Positions 4,194 through 42,436 of a stretch of DNA of 56,484 nt are shown one piece after another. The DNA is from an uncultured Acidobacteriia bacterium. GTDB lineage: Bacteria > Acidobacteriota > Terriglobia > Bryobacterales > Bryobacteraceae. Each line of letters opens with the position of its first letter. Within the stretch, counting starts at the first letter, position 1. The position numbers and the translations under genes were made by a program. The stretch lies in contig CAIVPR010000024.1 in assembly GCA_903907865.1 (NCBI GenBank), positions 1 to 56,484 on the forward strand. Direction: 5' to 3'. The notes below the pieces were generated by a model, which searched no databases, was not told where the DNA came from, and was given only the letters and a program-made list of their open reading frames with translations.

Positions 4194-4475
4194 CTAGGCT
4201 CTATAGCGGTCGCGGCAATCGTTGGAGCAGAAATGCCACACCTTGCCGTCGACGATCCTTTTCAGTGAAGTTTCGGTGGAGACGTAGGTCCCGCAAACGG
4301 GATCCTGCTGTAGTGTTGTAGTGCCGGAAGCGGCACGGGGCGGCGCTTGGCGGGTCGCGGATTGCCCGTGGCCGCTGGTCAGGTTCACCCACAGGCGCTG
4401 GAGGAACGCGATCACGTTCCGCAGCACGGAAAGCGCGATCAGGAAGAGGACCAGTCTTGAGAGGAACGCAAACAT
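4194..4475 (-). CDS. Small membrane-anchored YHS-domain protein
   Basis: A 93-residue protein with a hydrophobic N-terminal helix (residues about 4-28), a Ser/Arg-rich linker, and a C-terminal YHS-type metal-binding segment: DPVCGTYVS, then VWHFCSNDCRDRY. Small anchored YHS proteins like this are common in acidobacteria and Deltaproteobacteria, and their function is not established. The gene ends one base before the GTG start of mfd, so the two are probably cotranscribed. The start codon is immediately preceded by the U-tract of a terminator hairpin, so no ribosome binding site is visible. A downstream start is possible, but it would cut into the membrane helix. Confidence 0.75.
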   Translation of the reverse strand: MFAFLSRLVLFLIALSVLRNVIAFLQRLWVNLTSGHGQSATRQAPPRAASGTTTLQQDPVCGTYVSTETSLKRIVDGKVWHFCSNDCRDRYRA

Positions 4476-4476
4476 G

Positions 4477-4502
4477 AAAAAAGGGGATGCCGGAGCACCC
4501 CC
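4477..4502 (-). terminator. Rho-independent terminator after the TPR gene
   Basis: Read on the minus strand, an 8-bp stem GGGGGTGC/GCATCCCC (one G-U pair) with loop TCCG is followed by TTTTTT. It lies about 30 bases after the stop codon of the 5687-4533 gene, and its U-tract ends one base before the ATG of the YHS gene. Confidence 0.85.
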
Positions 4503-4532
4503 TTTCAGTGTAGTCGAGATGTCTACGAGGAA

Positions 4533-17186: not shown

Positions 17187-17600
17187 TCAGCGGGCGGCGA
17201 AGGCGGCGAAGTAGGCGCGCAGTTCGTCCCGGATTCGGCGGAACGAGGCGAGGCGTTCTTCTCCGGTACCGGTCGACAGCGGGTCTTCAAAACCGTGGTG
17301 GATGCGTTCGGCGGTCCCGAAGAAGACCGGGCAGTTCTCGCGCGCGTTGTCGCAGACGGTGAAAACGTAGTCGAAGTGCTGTCCGTCGAATTCGGCGACC
17401 GATTTCGAACGGTGCGTGGTCAAGTCGATTCCGATTTCCGCCATGACTGCGATGGCCTCGGGCCGGACGATGCTCGCACGGGTGCCAGCGCTCTCAACGT
17501 CGAACTTGTCGCCAGCGTCGTGCCGCAACAGGCCTTCCGCCATCTGGCTGCGGGCGGAATTCGCCGTGCAAAGGATCAGCACTCTTTTTTTAGGATTCAT
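17187..17600 (-). CDS. arsC: Thioredoxin-coupled arsenate reductase ArsC (LMW-PTP fold)
   Basis: A 137-residue protein that reduces arsenate to arsenite. The P-loop CTANSARS spans Cys11 to Ser18, and the redox pair Cys83 and Cys90 in TVCDNARENCPVF completes the three-cysteine relay of thioredoxin-linked ArsC. The length fits the family (about 130-140). The start is ATG 17600; the longer upstream frame is out of register with the aquaporin gene and rejected. It is the last gene of arsR-arsM-aqpS-like-arsC, seven bases after the aquaporin gene. Confidence 0.93.
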   Translation of the reverse strand: MNPKKRVLILCTANSARSQMAEGLLRHDAGDKFDVESAGTRASIVRPEAIAVMAEIGIDLTTHRSKSVAEFDGQHFDYVFTVCDNARENCPVFFGTAERIHHGFEDPLSTGTGEERLASFRRIRDELRAYFAAFAAR

Positions 17601-17607
17601 ATGCTCT

Positions 17608-18294
17608 CTATGTAAGGTTTCGGGCGGGGACGAGCCACCGGAATAGAATCGTTGCGGCGGCGGCCCCGGCCAGCTGCGCGATGATGAAACCCGGCACATC
17701 CACCGGGCGGATTCCGGCAAAGGTGTCGGTGGCCGCCCGGGCAAGCGTGACGGCGGGATTGGCGAACGAGGTGGACGCCGTGAACCAGTAGGCCCCGGTA
17801 ATGTAGGTGGCAACGGCGAACGGCACGGCGGACGGGCGGCTGCGCGAGCAACCCCAGATGACGGCCAACAATCCAAACGTCGCCACGAATTCGCTGAAGA
17901 TCTGAGCGCCGCCCGCCCGTACATGGCGCGACGCGGTAAAGACCGGCTCTCCGAACATCAAGTGCGCCGAAGCGACACCCCCGAATGCGCCCGCGACCTG
18001 CGCCGCCAGATAGCCCGGCACATCCCGCCAAGCCATTTCCCCCTGCGAGGCCATGGCCAAAGTTACCGCCGGATTCATGTGCGCTCCCGAGACCGGGCCG
18101 AATGTCAGAATCAGCGCCGCCAGCATCGCCCCGGTCGCCAGCGTATTCGCGAGCAGCGCGATGGCGACATTGCCGCCCGCCAAGCGGTCCGCCATTATGC
18201 CGGAGCCGACCACCGTCGCCAGTAGCAGCGCAGTGCCGATCGCTTCCGCCGCGTAGGACCGGGCCGCGTTCAAGAGCAGCATCCCGGTGCGCAA
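17608..18294 (-). CDS. Aquaglyceroporin, probable arsenite channel (AqpS-like)
   Basis: A 228-residue MIP-family channel with six hydrophobic segments and the two pore loops HMNPAVTLA (NPA 74-76) and FANPAVTLAR (NPA 179-181). In most aquaporins an Arg follows the second NPA as part of the selectivity filter; here it is Val182, as in the arsenic-linked AqpS subgroup. Located between arsM and arsC and overlapping the end of arsM by up to 25 bases, it most likely lets arsenite leave the cell down its gradient after ArsC action. ATG 18282 is an alternative start. No ArsB or Acr3 pump is encoded in the operon. Confidence 0.88.
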   Translation of the reverse strand: MRTGMLLLNAARSYAAEAIGTALLLATVVGSGIMADRLAGGNVAIALLANTLATGAMLAALILTFGPVSGAHMNPAVTLAMASQGEMAWRDVPGYLAAQVAGAFGGVASAHLMFGEPVFTASRHVRAGGAQIFSEFVATFGLLAVIWGCSRSRPSAVPFAVATYITGAYWFTASTSFANPAVTLARAATDTFAGIRPVDVPGFIIAQLAGAAAATILFRWLVPARNLT

Positions 18295-19106
18295 CAGGTC
18301 TTCGGTTTCGTCGCGCGGACGAATGCGCTCATGAACTTCCCGTCCACCAAGGGCGCGATCGCATCGACATCGACACCTTGCCCGGTCAGGAAGGAACGGG
18401 CATCCTCGATGTTGTAGACACGGGTCGGCTCGATTTCAATTCCGTCGAAGCCGGCCTTCGCGAGTTTGGCGACGTATTGGTAGTCGTCCAGCGCGCCCGC
18501 GATGCAGCCGACCCACAGCAGCATGTTCTGACGCACCGACTCCGGCACCTTTCCGCGGGTCACGACGTCGGAAACCGCGAACCGGCCTCCGGGCTTGAGG
18601 ACACGGAACGCTTCGCGCAACACCCGGTCCTTGTCCGACGAAAGATTGATCACGCAATTGCTGATGACCACGTCCACCGAATTGTCTGGAAGCGGGATGT
18701 GCTCGATTTCGCCTTTCAGGAACTCGACGTTTTCCACCCCGGCGATGCGCTGGTTTTCGCGTGCGAGGGCCAGCATTTCGTCCGTCATGTCGAGCCCGAA
18801 CGCCTTGCCGGTTGGCCCGACCCGCCGCGCCGAAAGGAGCACGTCGATCCCGCCGCCGGAGCCGAGGTCCAGCACCGTCTCGCCCGCCTTCAGTTCGGCA
18901 AGTGCGGTCGGATTCCCGCAGCCCAACGATGCGAGGACCGCGGCCTCCGGCAATACGCTTGTCTGCGCGGTGTCATAAAGGTTGGAGGTGATGGGGTCGC
19001 AGGACCCTGGCATCGCCGACCCGGCACCGCAACAGGAACTGCCGCCAGAATGTACCCTGAGCGCAGCCTGTCCGTACTTCTCTCGAACCGTTTCCCTGAT
19101 TTCCAT
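18270..19106 (-). CDS. arsM: Arsenite S-adenosylmethionine methyltransferase ArsM
   Basis: A 278-residue enzyme that methylates arsenite to volatile or less bound species. The SAM-binding motif [12 protein letters not shown] is at about 79-90. The conserved arsenite-binding cysteines Cys151 (ISNCVINL) and Cys201 (WVGCIAGAL) are present, with Cys63 a candidate third. Extra Cys pairs at 25-26 and near the C-terminus (KTCCAPGCC) are also typical of bacterial ArsM. Start ATG 19106 has AGGAG six bases upstream. The gene begins 8 bases after the arsR stop and overlaps the channel gene at its 3' end. Confidence 0.93.
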
Positions 19107-19114
19107 GGTGGCTC

Positions 19115-19456
19115 CTAACAGCAAAGATTTGTGATCGTATGGGGTTCCACCGCTTGGTTCCTCGTGCAGCACTCGGCATAGAGGAAGCCGAGCAGTTCGC
19201 GCAGGCCGTCGGCATTGGCCGAGTACCACAGGAACGTCCCATCCCGCCGCACGCGGACCAACCCTTCGTTCTTCAGCTTTTCCAAGTGGTGCGAAAGCGT
19301 GGACGCGGCGATCCCCAGTTCCTGACCGATGTCGCCGACGACCATCCCACCTGGATGGGCGGCCAGCAAGAGCCGCATGATCCGCAAGCGGGGAGCGGTC
19401 CCCATGGCGGAGAACATGTCGGCGAAGCGGGTGATCTGGTCTTCGGTGGGCGTCAT
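19115..19456 (-). CDS. arsR: ArsR-family arsenic-responsive repressor
   Basis: A 113-residue winged-helix repressor. The helix-turn-helix spans about 41-66 (VVGDIGQELGIAASTLSHHL), followed by the wing (LVRVRRDGTFLWYSA). It lacks the classic ELCVCD motif in the recognition helix. Instead Cys96-Cys97 near the end of the dimerisation helix and Cys112-Cys113 at the C-terminus are candidate arsenite ligands, a pattern seen in atypical ArsR proteins. First gene of the arsenic operon; a perfect palindrome lies just before its start codon and is its probable operator. Confidence 0.92.
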   Translation of the reverse strand: MTPTEDQITRFADMFSAMGTAPRLRIMRLLLAAHPGGMVVGDIGQELGIAASTLSHHLEKLKNEGLVRVRRDGTFLWYSANADGLRELLGFLYAECCTRNQAVEPHTITNLCC

Positions 19457-19463
19457 TCGATAT

Positions 19464-19479
19464 TTCTATATTTATAGAA
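19464..19479. promoter_or_regulatory. Probable ArsR operator (perfect 7-2-7 palindrome)
   Basis: TTCTATA-TT-TATAGAA, a perfect AT-rich inverted repeat 7 bases before the arsR start codon, in a region otherwise GC-rich. This is the size and position expected of an ArsR/SmtB-type operator overlapping the promoter. Binding would repress the whole operon until arsenite is bound. Confidence 0.7.
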
Positions 19480-19598
19480 GCATAGATGGATGCCGGACTG
19501 CAAGTGGGAAAAACATGCGAGGTCCAAGCGTTGCCGCGTGGGGGGGTGTCTTCCCCATCAACAGCTCACGTCCAGCTGCGCCAACCGCCGCTCGTGTC

Positions 19599-19618
19599 CT
19601 GAAAGGCAGACCTTTCGG
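19599..19618. other. Hairpin in the leader of the GGDEF/EAL gene
   Basis: CTGAAAGG-CAGA-CCTTTCGG, an 8-bp stem with one G-T pair and a 4-base loop, about 100 bases before the start of the GGDEF/EAL gene. No T-run follows on either strand. It does not fit the c-di-GMP riboswitch pattern. Its role is unknown. Confidence 0.4.
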
Positions 19619-19715
19619 AATCGTCAGCTCCCTGAAATTTTGGCCGGAAACAGCGGAATTTGGAAAGGACGTGCGTGCCGCCGTTATCCACTAATGGATG
19701 TGAGATTATCAGACT

Positions 19716-20969
19716 ATGGAGCGCGACGTGACCGGAGAAAATCGGGACTTTCGCCGAGATCCGTTGACCGGTTTGTCGGACGGAACCGAGCTCCTCCACT
19801 GTGCAAGGGCCGCGCAGGAGCAACACCGGGAAGGGCAAGACCCTCCGGCGCTTCTGGTGGTCGACTTGGATGGATTCAAAGCTGTAGTCGACGGTGCCGG
19901 CCACAAAACCGGAAACTTGGTCCTGCAGCGGGTCGCCAAACGCCTCCGGGATGCGTCCGGTTCCGACATGTTGGTTGCCAGGCTGTGGGCCGACGAGTTT
20001 GCCATTCTGATGCCGGACGGAGCCGAGGCCGAGCGGCTTGCCGAGCGGCTCCTCGCCGTCATTCGGAGACCGTACGCGGTCGGCGGGCAGATTGTAAACA
20101 TCTCCGCCAGTCTCGGAATAGCCATGCTGGCACCGGGCCAAGCCGTCGAGGAATGGATTGGCAACGCGAGCATCGCGGTTCGTGAGGCTCAGCGGGGCAC
20201 CAGGGGTCGCCGCGTCACGTTCGCCGACCGCATGCGGGAGAGCGCGAGCCGCCGGTTCGTGTTGGACCGAGACCTGCGGTCCGCAGTTACCCTGCTCAAC
20301 CCGGAACTGCGGTACGCGCGGGAATTGAGTCAGTTCGTTCTGGAATACCAACCGCATTTCCACTTGCAAAGCCGTCGGCTCGCGGGCTTCGAGGCTCTGA
20401 TTCGCTGGTTCCATCCCGAACGTGGACGCGTCGGTCCGGACGAATTCATCCCAGTGGCCGAGCGAACCGGGTTGATCTGCACATTGGGAACTTGGATCCT
20501 TCGCACCGCTTGTCAAGCCGCCGTCCAATGGCCGGCGTGCGACGGCGGGCAGCCGCTGCTCAGCGTCAACGTCTCCCCGCTTCAGATCGCGGAAGGGAAT
20601 TCGTTCATCCAATCCCTCCGTGAGGTCCTTCGGGGATCTGGTCTGCCACCAACCCGTCTGGTCCTGGAGATCACCGAGTCCGCCGCTTTACCGGACGCCC
20701 TGCCCGTGTTCGAGGAGATTCGGGCGATGGGCATCCAGCTGAGCATCGACGACTTCGGAACTGGTTTTTCCTCGCTCGGCCACCTCGCAAGGTTCGGCTT
20801 CGACCGGTTGAAAATCGACCGCTCCTTCGTCCGGGACCTTTCCCTGTTCTCTTCAGAGACAGCAACCCCCGTCGGAAACGGCACATTGAGCCGCAGTGAC
20901 CAAGCAGTCTGGATTGTTCGCGCGATCACCGGCTTGGCCCAAGGACTGGGGTTGTCGACACTTGCCTAG
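19716..20969 (+). CDS. GGDEF/EAL c-di-GMP protein, cut by an in-frame amber codon
   Basis: 417 residues before TAG. The GGDEF domain (about 14-170) starts at DPLTGL, but its active site reads LWADEF (90-95) instead of GGDEF, so cyclase activity is unlikely. The EAL domain (about 200-417) keeps Glu226 (EAL), Asn285 (VNVSP), Glu318 (LEITES), Asp345-Asp346 (DDFGTG) and Lys366 (LKIDRSF). Codon 418, where the family has the Glu of the AEGVE motif, is TAG; the same frame continues with GVE and a normal EAL C-terminus to 21122. A single G-to-T change (GAG to TAG) explains this. No sensor domain is attached. A BLUF gene overlaps the end of the original frame. Without read-through the product should lack phosphodiesterase activity. 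Confidence 0.88.
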   Translation: MERDVTGENRDFRRDPLTGLSDGTELLHCARAAQEQHREGQDPPALLVVDLDGFKAVVDGAGHKTGNLVLQRVAKRLRDASGSDMLVARLWADEFAILMPDGAEAERLAERLLAVIRRPYAVGGQIVNISASLGIAMLAPGQAVEEWIGNASIAVREAQRGTRGRRVTFADRMRESASRRFVLDRDLRSAVTLLNPELRYARELSQFVLEYQPHFHLQSRRLAGFEALIRWFHPERGRVGPDEFIPVAERTGLICTLGTWILRTACQAAVQWPACDGGQPLLSVNVSPLQIAEGNSFIQSLREVLRGSGLPPTRLVLEITESAALPDALPVFEEIRAMGIQLSIDDFGTGFSSLGHLARFGFDRLKIDRSFVRDLSLFSSETATPVGNGTLSRSDQAVWIVRAITGLAQGLGLSTLA

Positions 20970-21122
20970 GGCGTTGAGAACCCAGACCAAGAGGAAATCT
21001 TGCGGAGGGCCGGAGTCGACGAAGCGCAGGGCTTCCTCTACTCCCGTCCTTTGGCCGCCGACCGGGTTCCGGCGTTCATCGAGGGTGCCAGCGTTTTCGT
21101 GTTGGATAGAGGAAAACCGTGA
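20970..21122 (+). pseudogene. Cut-off C-terminus of the EAL domain
   Basis: Directly after the amber codon and in the same frame, 50 codons read GVENPDQEEI, then DEAQGFLYSRPLAA and a short tail to TGA at 21120-21122. This matches the end of EAL domains, including the Gln-Gly and SRPL segment that closes the active site. The terminal TGA overlaps the GTG start of the BLUF gene (GTGA), an arrangement that only makes sense if translation once ran through. Confidence 0.85.
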
Positions 21123-21607
21123 GCCACGAGATTTTCAGTCTTGCCTACGTCAGCAGGAGTGAACTGTCTGGGTCCGGGGACGTGCTGAAAGCCGAGATTC
21201 GCGCCATACTTGCATCGTCCCGGCGTAACAACCATCGGCTGGGCGTGACGGGTGCCCTCCTCTATTCCGAAGGTTGGTTTGCGCAAATCCTCGAGGGCCC
21301 GGTCGACGCCTTGGAGTCACTCTTTGAGACCATCGGGGCGGACCGTCGCCACTCCAACGTGACGATCCTGCACTTCCATCCAGTGGAGGAGCCGTCCTTT
21401 CCGGCTTGGTCCATGGCGTATGCCGGTCTGGACCCGGCAGGGAAGGGCCGGGCGGAGGAGGTGAGCGCGCTTTCCGCTGCGGACCAGATCCCCGCGACGT
21501 CCACTGGGGCTTCCTTCGTGGCGACCCTGCACGACTTCATTTCCTGCCAGGAGCAGGGGTTGGCGGAACAGACTCAGCCGGACCCGGCACCGCCCGCGAA
21601 CGGCTAA
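21119..21607 (+). CDS. BLUF-domain blue-light photoreceptor
   Basis: A 162-residue stand-alone BLUF protein (FAD-binding blue-light sensor). Key residues are visible: Tyr10 (LAYVSRS), Asn37/Asn38 (SRRNNHRLGVTG), Gln56 (FAQILEG), and Trp97 with Met99 (PAWSMAY), corresponding to the Tyr-Gln-Trp/Met photocycle set. Tyr-to-Gln spacing is 46, a few residues more than in short BLUFs, from an insertion after SRSELSG. After about residue 105 the tail is acidic and probably disordered. The start is GTG, overlapping the TGA of the broken EAL frame, so it was translationally coupled to it. In other bacteria BLUF controls EAL domains in the same chain or in trans; here it is a separate chain. Confidence 0.92.
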   Translation: MSHEIFSLAYVSRSELSGSGDVLKAEIRAILASSRRNNHRLGVTGALLYSEGWFAQILEGPVDALESLFETIGADRRHSNVTILHFHPVEEPSFPAWSMAYAGLDPAGKGRAEEVSALSAADQIPATSTGASFVATLHDFISCQEQGLAEQTQPDPAPPANG

Positions 21608-21729
21608 GCGACCGCAACCGATCCTTCCATTGGCCGATCCGGCGCAGCGGTCTGCGGGGACGGTCCGGACGCACTAGAGGGGCCGAATACCTCCCGTGGA
21701 ACTGTTCCACTGGCGACATACAATGTGGT

Positions 21730-22299
21730 TTGGCAAGTGCGGCTCCATTCACCCAACTCCTGCGCCACCTCAAGGATGGCGACAAGGCTGCTTTAGACCA
21801 GCTGATGCCCCTTGTCTACGCCGAGCTGCGCCGTTTGGCCGACAACTACCTGCGCAATGAGCGTCCCGGCCACACCCTCCAGCCGACCGCCTTGGTCCAC
21901 GAGGCCTACATGCGCCTCGCTGGCCAAGAGCAGCCGGACTACGAAAGCCGCGCCCACTTCAGCGGTGTCGCCGCCCAGGTGATGCGTCAGATCCTGGTGG
22001 ACCACGCCCGGCGCCGCAACGCATCCAAGCGGGGGGGCGGCGTGCGGCCGCTGTCGCTCGACGAAGGCATTGACGCGGCCGAGGAGCGCGCCGGCGACCT
22101 GATCGCCCTCGACGACGCGCTCACCGCCCTGGCCCAGCAGGATCCGAAAAAGGCCCGCCTCATCGAACTCCGCTACTTCGGCGGGCTCACCGCCGAGGAG
22201 GCCGCGGAGGTCACCTCGCTGTCGGTCCAAGCCGTCTACCGCGAGATCCGCATCGCCAACGCCTGGCTGCGCCGGTTCATCGAAGCACCGGTCCAATAG
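21730..22299 (+). CDS. ECF-type RNA polymerase sigma factor (acidobacterial/planctomycete type)
   Basis: About 189 residues. Region 2 (TQLLRHLKDGDKAALDQLMP, then HTLQPTALVHEAYMRLA) and the AHFSGVAAQVMRQILVDHAR helix are signatures of the Sigma70-ECF family common in Acidobacteria and Planctomycetes. Region 4 ends with VTSLSVQAVYREIRIANAWL. The start is uncertain: TTG 21730 gives the length usual for the family, while the open frame reaches back into the BLUF gene without sigma-like sequence. No anti-sigma factor is adjacent. It is followed by the DUF1800/DUF1501 pair, an association often seen in these phyla. Confidence 0.87.
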   Translation: MASAAPFTQLLRHLKDGDKAALDQLMPLVYAELRRLADNYLRNERPGHTLQPTALVHEAYMRLAGQEQPDYESRAHFSGVAAQVMRQILVDHARRRNASKRGGGVRPLSLDEGIDAAEERAGDLIALDDALTALAQQDPKKARLIELRYFGGLTAEEAAEVTSLSVQAVYREIRIANAWLRRFIEAPVQ

Positions 22300-36866: not shown

Positions 36867-37937
36867 TTAGCCCGTAGCCGGAACCGGCAGTTGCAATTCC
36901 GCCTTCACGGAGGCCGCTCGTGGCGTCCGCGACTTGTGCGTGTAGAGATCCGCATCGGCACGTTCGATGAGCATCTCGAGCGTCTCTCCGGGCCTGCTTG
37001 CGGCGACACCGACGGAAGCGCCGAGAACCACGTCGCACGTCTTGCCCGTTTGGCTCAGTTTGTGGCAAGACGTCAGCCGCACCCGCAGTTCCGCCGCCCG
37101 CTGTTCCGCGACCTCGCCCGTGCAACGCAGGAGAACGAGGAATTCGTCTCCGCCCCATCTGCAGACCATGTCCATCGCCCGCACGCTGTTTGCAAGCAGA
37201 CTTGCGAACGAGCGCAGCACCTGATCCCCGCACCCATGTCCCCAACGGTCATTGATCTGTTTGAATCCGTTCAGATCGATCAGGATGACACTTGACGGGT
37301 CCTGTTCCCCCAACTGCTTGCGGAGCCTGGCTTCTCCTTCGCCCCGGTTGAGCAACCCGGTGACTGCGTCCACGGAGGCCCGCCGCGCGGCCTGCTCCAA
37401 GCGCCCTTGGAATTCCGTCAGCTTCGCCTGCATCTCGTGGATCGCTCCCGCGCTTTCCTGCATGAGCGACGCCCCGAACTCGCGCAGCTCGGCGACCTGC
37501 TTGGCCAAATCCTCCCGGATCCTCCCCAAGTCGGTTCCCCGCGACACCAACTGGAGGCGCATGGCGAATTGCTTGATCTTCAGGGACTGCCTGTCCCCGT
37601 GCGTCGCCAGTGTTCCGACCGCCTCCGCCAGCGACGAAAGCAGCCCGCGCAGATCCTCATCTCTGCCCGCCTGATGAGCCGAGGCCTTCGCCTGGAAGTC
37701 CGACAGCAACGTGCCGACCCGCACTTGGCTCCGTCCGAGTTCTTCGGGCCCGGGGTTGTCCGATACGTCGCGCACAACTTCCCGCAAGGATGACCGGAGA
37801 GATCCTGTTATCTCTGGAGTGACCTCAACCGCGGCGTCCGCAACTGTCGTGAGCGCGGCCAGGTAGCATTGGACCGCAGCCCGGAACCGAAGTTCGTCCC
37901 GTTCTAGTCGCTGGATGCTTTGTTTTAACGAGATCAT
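36867..37937 (-). CDS. Diguanylate cyclase with N-terminal helical region
   Basis: A 356-residue protein. Start ATG 37937 is preferred; the open frame extends upstream under the TPR gene. Residues about 1-190 are helical and coiled-coil-rich with no recognised sensor (LKQSIQRLERDELRFRAAVQ), like the N-terminal region of PleD-type or stress-related cyclases. The GGDEF domain (about 190-345) is intact: ASVDAVTGLLNRGEGEARL, LIDLNGFKQINDRWGHGCGD, RWGGDEFLVL and SVGVAA. RxxD at the usual I-site, five residues before GGDEF, is RAMD. It should make c-di-GMP. It is the third gene of a minus-strand run miaA-TPR-GGDEF, 95 bases after the TPR gene. Confidence 0.88.
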   Translation of the reverse strand: MISLKQSIQRLERDELRFRAAVQCYLAALTTVADAAVEVTPEITGSLRSSLREVVRDVSDNPGPEELGRSQVRVGTLLSDFQAKASAHQAGRDEDLRGLLSSLAEAVGTLATHGDRQSLKIKQFAMRLQLVSRGTDLGRIREDLAKQVAELREFGASLMQESAGAIHEMQAKLTEFQGRLEQAARRASVDAVTGLLNRGEGEARLRKQLGEQDPSSVILIDLNGFKQINDRWGHGCGDQVLRSFASLLANSVRAMDMVCRWGGDEFLVLLRCTGEVAEQRAAELRVRLTSCHKLSQTGKTCDVVLGASVGVAASRPGETLEMLIERADADLYTHKSRTPRAASVKAELQLPVPATG

Positions 37938-38032
37938 GCCCTTGCGGCGTTGGCCTTCACTGGTACTATCGGCGGGCGCAAGCGAATTCTTTAGGGCTTC
38001 CGGAGTTATTTTGTCTCGGTCGGCAACAACTT

Positions 38033-39256
38033 TTATTTGGACTTCCCTGGTCCCCGCAGCTCCGCCTGCAACTGACGGAAGGCGGAATCCTCGAATGACG
38101 TCTTGATGCGCTCCAAGCCCTGGCTCCGCGCATCCCCCGCCCGGGGGCCGTCCATCCGTAGGCACCGCCCCAGGAGCACGGTCGCGTCCTGGTCACCCGC
38201 CGACCGGTCCAGCACGGCCCGGAACCGGTCTGCGGCCTGCGCGAACTGGCCCTGTTTCCACAGCGAGTAGCCAGTGTTGAACCAGTAGTCCGGATCGGCC
38301 TCGTCGCCTTCCAGCGCCTTCTTGAACTGGTCGAAAGCCGCAGGATCGTTGCGCCGCGAGAGCGCCGCGCCCAAGTTGTTGTACACCTCGTTCAAGGGAA
38401 TTTCCAAAAGAACGGTGCGGAACTGCCGCACGGCCCCGTCGAAATCACCCTCGTGATACTTGCAAATGCCGAGCAGGTATGTGGCCTCGAAGTAGTGCGA
38501 ATCGTTGCGGCTCACTCGGGCTAGGTATACCGAGGCCCCCCGGTAGTCCTTTTTTGCGAATGACAACCGCCCCAGCTGGAAGTTGGGCTGGGAGAACTTC
38601 TCGTCCAGCCGCACGGATTGGGAAAACAGCTTTGCCTGCCGCTCCGGTGTGGAGGCGATCAGGCCCCGGACGTAGCTTTCCATCGCATCCAATCGCACCG
38701 GGGGACGGTCGCGCATGAATTCGGCCTCTGTCGGAACGCTATCCTGGCGCAGATTGCCAAGGATCAACCACGCGATCTTCACCTGCATCTGGCTCAAGGT
38801 TTCAAGCGGCCCGGACTGCTCATACACAGCCATCTCGTGTAGCTTGCGCAGGTCCACCACATGTACCACCACGCGCAGGTTGGACGCTGGACCCGGCGTT
38901 GTCCCAGGAGCAGCCCCGTCGACAGCAAACTCGCCATAGAGGACCGTTCCGGCATCCAACGTGTCGCCGATTTTCAGCACCGAGGCCTTTGTCAGCACCA
39001 CTCCGGTGCGCAGGGAAAGCCGCCGGTATGCCTCTTGGCGTTCCTCCCGCGCCAGCAGCAGCAAGCCTGTGGCCGAGAGTGATTCCCGAATCGTCTCCGA
39101 AACGCTCTCGCCGATCCAGTCCAGTCCCGGTGCCTGGGCATGGTTGAGATTGAACAACGGCAACGCGGCGATGGTTTCGGCCCCGTCGGCGGTGGCCGAG
39201 ACCAATGTCGCGAGCAAAATCATGGCGGGGAAGCGGCGCAAGCTATACGTTATCAA
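38033..39256 (-). CDS. Exported TPR protein
   Basis: About 407 residues. Start TTG 39256 lies 14 bases inside the end of miaA and has GGAGGG 11 bases upstream; ATG 39223 is an alternative with a shorter signal. Signal segment: RRFPAMILLATLVSATADGA. Residues about 25-190 form a FlgO/CsgG-like domain (TIAALPLFNLNHAQAPGLDW, SVSETIRESLSATGLLLLAR). TPR repeats follow from about 215 (HYFEATYLLGICKYHEGDFD; NEVYNNLGAALSRRNDPAAF; DPDYWFNTGYSLWKQGQFAQ). It probably acts in the periplasm, perhaps in an assembly complex. The partner is unknown. Confidence 0.8.
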   Translation of the reverse strand: MITYSLRRFPAMILLATLVSATADGAETIAALPLFNLNHAQAPGLDWIGESVSETIRESLSATGLLLLAREERQEAYRRLSLRTGVVLTKASVLKIGDTLDAGTVLYGEFAVDGAAPGTTPGPASNLRVVVHVVDLRKLHEMAVYEQSGPLETLSQMQVKIAWLILGNLRQDSVPTEAEFMRDRPPVRLDAMESYVRGLIASTPERQAKLFSQSVRLDEKFSQPNFQLGRLSFAKKDYRGASVYLARVSRNDSHYFEATYLLGICKYHEGDFDGAVRQFRTVLLEIPLNEVYNNLGAALSRRNDPAAFDQFKKALEGDEADPDYWFNTGYSLWKQGQFAQAADRFRAVLDRSAGDQDATVLLGRCLRMDGPRAGDARSQGLERIKTSFEDSAFRQLQAELRGPGKSK

Positions 39257-42374: not shown

Positions 42375-42436
42375 CCACTCAAAAAAACTTTCGCGGGAAT
42401 GAAATACTTCCCCTCCCGGCTCCATATCCCTAGTGA

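Follow-up and report, generated by a model that had tools for sequence, protein, structure and literature searches.

Light control of cyclic di-GMP breakdown by BLUF proteins has been described in two arrangements. In Rhodopseudomonas palustris, the EAL enzyme PapA and the short BLUF protein PapB form a complex (PMC8846402). In BlrP1 of Klebsiella pneumoniae, a BLUF domain and an EAL domain work together within one fused phosphodiesterase. For EAL genes with a premature stop codon or read-through, the literature offered one useful precedent, from related enzymes of Shigella: c-di-GMP still rose with diguanylate cyclase genes that carried nonsense codons, and two of these genes gave a full-length-sized band for which read-through was offered as one possibility (PMC11327459). 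A stop codon alone is therefore no proof of loss.

Here, we describe a locus within the window (the whole stretch of 56,484 nucleotides that was analysed) at which a GGDEF-EAL gene with an in-frame amber codon runs into the start of a separate BLUF gene. With a probability of about 0.62, we read this locus as a PapA/PapB-like light/c-di-GMP module whose phosphodiesterase gene was very recently broken by a nonsense change.

A GGDEF-EAL gene with an in-frame amber codon overlaps a BLUF gene

The GGDEF-EAL gene (19716-20969, + strand) begins with ATG and encodes 417 amino acids before ending at a TAG, codon 418 (20967-20969); the open reading frame at 19716-20969 confirms the position given for this stop in a first-pass annotation of the same DNA. 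By Pfam, the 417-aa product contains a GGDEF domain (residues 14-163) and positions 3-208 of the 236 in the EAL profile (PF00563; 176.8 bits, above the cut-off of 31.3). Downstream of the TAG, the same frame stays open for 50 sense codons up to a TGA at 21120-21122, and this stretch (20970-21122, + strand) encodes GVE, a helix, a strand with Q438, and a C-terminal helix. The 50-residue piece matches EAL profile positions 210-236 (E value of 7.7e-5; 22.6 bits, which for the piece alone falls under the curated cut-off of 31.3 for PF00563), in agreement with the earlier statement that the frame continues into an EAL C terminus. A whole-genome profile search returned a single EAL match of 216.9 bits spanning the TAG, with "1 TAG" inside. 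The EAL domain as a whole (20304-21050, + strand) has E226, N285, E318, D345/D346, and K366 upstream of the stop, intact and correctly numbered when first reported, and E421 and Q438 downstream of it. In the product translated with table 11, the full EAL active-site set (E, N, E, DD, K, E, Q) is incomplete, as the Glu of EGVE and Q438 are missing.

The terminal TGA of the EAL frame overlaps the GTG start of a second gene as GTGA. This gene (21119-21607, + strand), a hint to the nature of the module that the first-pass annotation overlooked, encodes a 162-aa protein with a BLUF domain (92.9 bits, Pfam). The protein matches solved BLUF photoreceptors and carries Tyr10, Asn37/38, Gln56, and Trp97, which we take to be the flavin-site residues. 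A GAGG ribosome-binding-like motif, read by eye, lies just 5' of the start, and a scan of 19400-21900 for sigma-70-like promoters returned none, with 0.3 expected. A separate BLUF protein encoded together with an EAL gene is a PapA-PapB-like layout, and the gene order suggests that the BLUF protein may bind the EAL enzyme and regulate it by light.

An open extension of 50 codons is not significant by itself, given that 17 other TAG-ended long open reading frames in the window extend by 1 to 388 codons. The case for an interrupted gene comes instead from the EAL homology after the TAG and from the exact fit of the frame to the BLUF start. Divergent from the EAL-BLUF genes is a cluster (17187-19456, - strand) with Pfam matches to an ArsR-type regulator, a methyltransferase, a MIP channel, and an LMWPc (ArsC-like) phosphatase. 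Its gene order points to arsenic roles, and the methyltransferase might, as a guess, be an arsenite methyltransferase. A second GGDEF-domain protein of the window is encoded at 36867-38165 (- strand).

The amber codon falls at the EGVE glutamate, as had been claimed. This column is Glu in all 36 relatives that reach it, own-genome paralogues included. The underlying alignment had 40 rows, of which 37 were left once duplicates and pieces under 180 residues were removed; the 37th row is the window's own truncated frame and stands outside the 36 counted. In a fold alignment of the window protein with 30 of the 36 relatives (1 was too short and 5 were left out), column 418 is again Glu in 30/30, and sequence alignments pair codon 418 with the glutamate of the EGVE motif in PA0575 and MorA. 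By length arithmetic (query 202-450 against RocR 151-384), codon 418 would also correspond to E352 of RocR, which is listed as a metal-coordinating residue (PMC7911125). That a catalytic codon was hit is slightly surprising at most: a single substitution could also turn 113 other codons of the gene into a stop, including five at conserved positions of the EAL site (226, 318, 366, 421, and 438), so that about 6 of the 114 single-step nonsense sites (5%) would be equally striking. Any stop upstream would have broken the enzyme as well.

We modeled the full frame with AlphaFold2, reading the stop as Gln (mean pLDDT of 90.3). In fold, this model is matched best by PA0575 and MorA, both GGDEF-EAL structures (5m3c, 4rnh). 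Residue 418 ends predicted strand 414-418 and is followed by helix 423-431, strand 436-438, and helix 448-461. Since these elements all come after residue 418, the 417-aa product is predicted to lack the closing strand of the barrel. It also lacks three conserved residues (418, E421, and Q438); it should be catalytically inactive, and it is probably unstable. Restart of translation after the TAG was considered and set aside, as none of the in-frame candidates (TTG at 21000, TTG at 21051, GTG at 21099, and TTG at 21102) would be able to rebuild the barrel.

Constraint on the EAL and GGDEF domains

Among the matches listed from 40 other genomes, the nearest EAL relative belongs to the same genus (genome G008, locus L010) and is 54% identical over query residues 10-417. 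Its EAL gene is intact, has Glu at the column, and ends in a TGA that overlaps a BLUF start as GTGA. An insertion of about 20 residues in an EAL loop near 376-395 (20841-20900) is common only to this relative and the window gene among the 24 relatives listed. A genome contig scan for a near-identical strain returned only two distant loci (38% and 31%), and near records may be absent from the set scanned.

We defined near-invariant columns as those with the same residue in at least 90% of 29 other relatives. In the EAL domain, the window gene deviates at 0 of 30 such columns before the TAG and at 0 of 7 after it. Lineage-specific changes, averaged over 29 outgroups, number 13.3 in the window gene and 13.2 in the G008 relative before the TAG, and 1.3 and 3.9, respectively, after it. 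The pN/pS ratio between these two genes is 0.386 before the TAG (residues 197-417) and 0.376 after it, values that are rough because synonymous sites are near saturation (pS of 0.71 and 0.85). The EAL domain looks to have been under full constraint until very recently. As its sequence has no sign of decay, the nonsense change is probably recent, which supports this part of the first-pass interpretation; we infer the recency from intactness, and it carries no date because even the closest relative shares no more than 54% identity.

The accompanying claim that nothing else had decayed holds for the EAL domain but not for the GGDEF domain (19755-20204, + strand; PF00990, 93.5 bits against a cut-off of 23.8). 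The active site of the latter is degenerate, with V58, N67, W91, and A92 at near-invariant columns; where an intact domain has GG(D/E)EF, this one reads WADEF, and V58 and N67 stand in place of near-invariant residues of the site. Deviations at near-invariant GGDEF columns number 7 of 30 in the window gene, 5 of 30 in the G008 relative, and 0 to 6 in the others (leave-one-out), and lineage-specific changes in this domain average 17.4 in the window gene versus 12.8 in the G008 relative (29 outgroups). Deviating positions 91, 152, and 159 are common to both genes, with different residues. This pattern suggests that the GGDEF domain of a dedicated phosphodiesterase came under weaker constraint at an earlier stage, with the window gene further along (V58, N67, and A92). 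The window GGDEF domain is probably noncatalytic.

Taken together, these findings point first to a recent nonsense change; an error in the consensus sequence is the second explanation. In the ancestral state, a GGDEF-EAL phosphodiesterase gene would have overlapped the gene for a separate BLUF photoreceptor, which would bind and regulate the phosphodiesterase. Very recently, the codon for the EGVE glutamate in the phosphodiesterase gene would have mutated to a stop. With RF1 expected to terminate translation at codon 418, barrel strand 7 would be one residue short at its end, and strand 8 and the C-terminal helix would be missing from the product. The BLUF gene, with its own start and ribosome-binding-like motif, may still be expressed, in which case its protein would be left without an output enzyme and translation coupling across the junction would be lost.

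The absence of decay in the EAL domain is equally compatible with a sequence error or with read-through. In the former case, assembly, sequencing, or consensus calling would have produced the TAG as an artefact, or the TAG would belong to a minority strain, and the living population would carry an intact gene. We consider this unlikely but worth taking seriously, as it would account for an EAL domain free of any decay and the assembly is a draft of 186 contigs. Moreover, tRNA-Ile(GAT) and tRNA-Ala(TGC) are absent from the 46 tRNA matches called, so the tRNA set may be incomplete and parts of the genome may be missing (a guess is that both tRNAs lie in a missing rRNA operon). Weighing on the other side, the window gene is the only one of 11 EAL matches in its genome with an internal stop, and no stops lie inside the 10 further EAL, 21 GGDEF, or 87 response-regulator matches, indicating that the assembly is not error-rich in those coding sequences. 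Across 19 genomes of the genus (own included), the window gene is likewise the only one of 137 EAL matches with an internal stop, a count that misses broken genes listed as two pieces. A lone wrong base at the TAG is possible.

TAG as a stop codon in this genome

In this genome, TAG does function as a stop codon. Among the 39 long open reading frames of the window, a crude set that was chosen mechanically and includes some spurious frames, 18 end in TAG, the GGDEF-EAL gene included. We searched the extensions beyond 9 of the 17 other TAG codons against Pfam (the search did not take in those at 42375 and 47329 or six of 1-8 codons); 7 had no match, and 2 ran into a separate tandem gene. The Alpha-E gene covers 294/294 profile positions before its TAG, and a transglutaminase gene comes next in the same frame. 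A TPR-repeat gene ends in TAG and is followed by a small YHS gene (4194-4532, - strand), whose own TAG abuts the GTG start codon of mfd, the gene for the transcription-repair coupling factor. The YHS domain (profile positions 2-37 of 47) was tried as a second split gene and dropped because of this TAG immediately preceding the mfd start. Reassignment of TAG is rejected, given that the codon is the ordinary gene end at the Alpha-E, YHS, and TPR-repeat genes.

Read-through at some level, by near-cognate misreading or by an undetected suppressor, would yield a little full-length enzyme, perhaps conditionally. The first-pass annotation had raised this idea together with that of an amber-suppressor tRNA, and the genome supports neither. 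None of its 46 tRNA matches, a set that is not quite complete, has a CUA anticodon. A CUA-loop pattern gave 4 hits, below the 20 of the reversed control, and these fell in tRNA-Leu(CAG), in tRNA-Arg(TCT), and at two sites that no tRNA match covers. The genome encodes RF1 (532 bits against a cut-off of 423), and ordinary genes nearby end in TAG. Full activity would also require insertion of Glu, and near-cognate misreading of UAG usually inserts other residues. What read-through would explain is that the sequence after the TAG is as constrained as that before it, and the full-length-sized bands from the two Shigella genes lend it a precedent (PMC11327459). On balance, we find it improbable, and the EAL amber gene carries little weight as evidence of recoding.

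It is slightly more improbable still that the 417-aa product is retained as a noncatalytic protein, for example, one that partners the BLUF protein or regulates it by binding a ligand. Such proteins exist, as LapD and FimX are noncatalytic GGDEF-EAL proteins; both appear among the relatives of known structure, and the GGDEF part of the window protein is already degenerate. However, all near-invariant EAL columns before the TAG are kept, unlike in a domain long freed from catalysis, and the predicted truncation takes away the closing barrel strand. We give very little credence to the amber codon as a conditional switch, with a stress- or error-dependent pool of full-length, light-regulated enzyme and the 417-aa product serving as an inactive BLUF partner.

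EAL-BLUF gene pairs and described light-regulated systems

Across the family, 33 of the 237 genomes, this one among them, contain BLUF matches. At 14 BLUF loci, the window's excluded, we looked for EAL motifs in the adjoining sequence by a crude search and found an EAL gene overlapping the BLUF start at 3 of them (in genomes G008, G022, and G185; loci L010, L097, and L098), which is a lower bound because the flank was at most about 1.5 kb and the motifs were strict. Overlapping EAL/BLUF gene pairs do occur in this family of large-genome bacteria. Internal stops were also seen in other matches. The TAG inside the G022 BLUF match is an ordinary gene end, and two further BLUF matches have one stop inside (G231:C211:4250-4522, TAG; G105:C47:6381-6773, TGA). 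Among the matches listed, the GGDEF-region matches of relatives G032 and G009 each contain one TGA. In G001, contigs C83 and C79 have two EAL genes as overlapping pieces in different open frames, likely frameshifted.

If the nonsense change is real, the window offers a snapshot of the first step in the loss of a light-to-c-di-GMP pathway, with one nonsense codon in the enzyme while the other EAL-site columns and the photoreceptor gene look intact. Cases like this one help to date how fast signalling modules are lost.

As in the PapA-PapB pair of R. palustris, the window pairs an EAL protein with a separate short BLUF protein, here encoded by overlapping genes. This likeness draws on the published description and the gene layout of the window rather than on sequence comparison, and PapA differs in being a solo EAL domain, whereas the window protein has a degenerate GGDEF domain before the EAL domain, plus the stop. 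The EAL and the BLUF protein of the window each match the BlrP1 chain in the PDB (E values of 8e-16 and 1.1e-6), and the pair would work together as the two domains of that protein do, from two genes in place of one fused chain. Over the GGDEF-EAL domains, PA0575 and MorA are the best matches in sequence as well as in fold. The closest counterpart is the orthologue at L010 of G008, which has the same loop insertion and the same GTGA overlap with a BLUF gene, and which differs in having no stop, Glu at the column, and GGDEF deviations at partly different positions.
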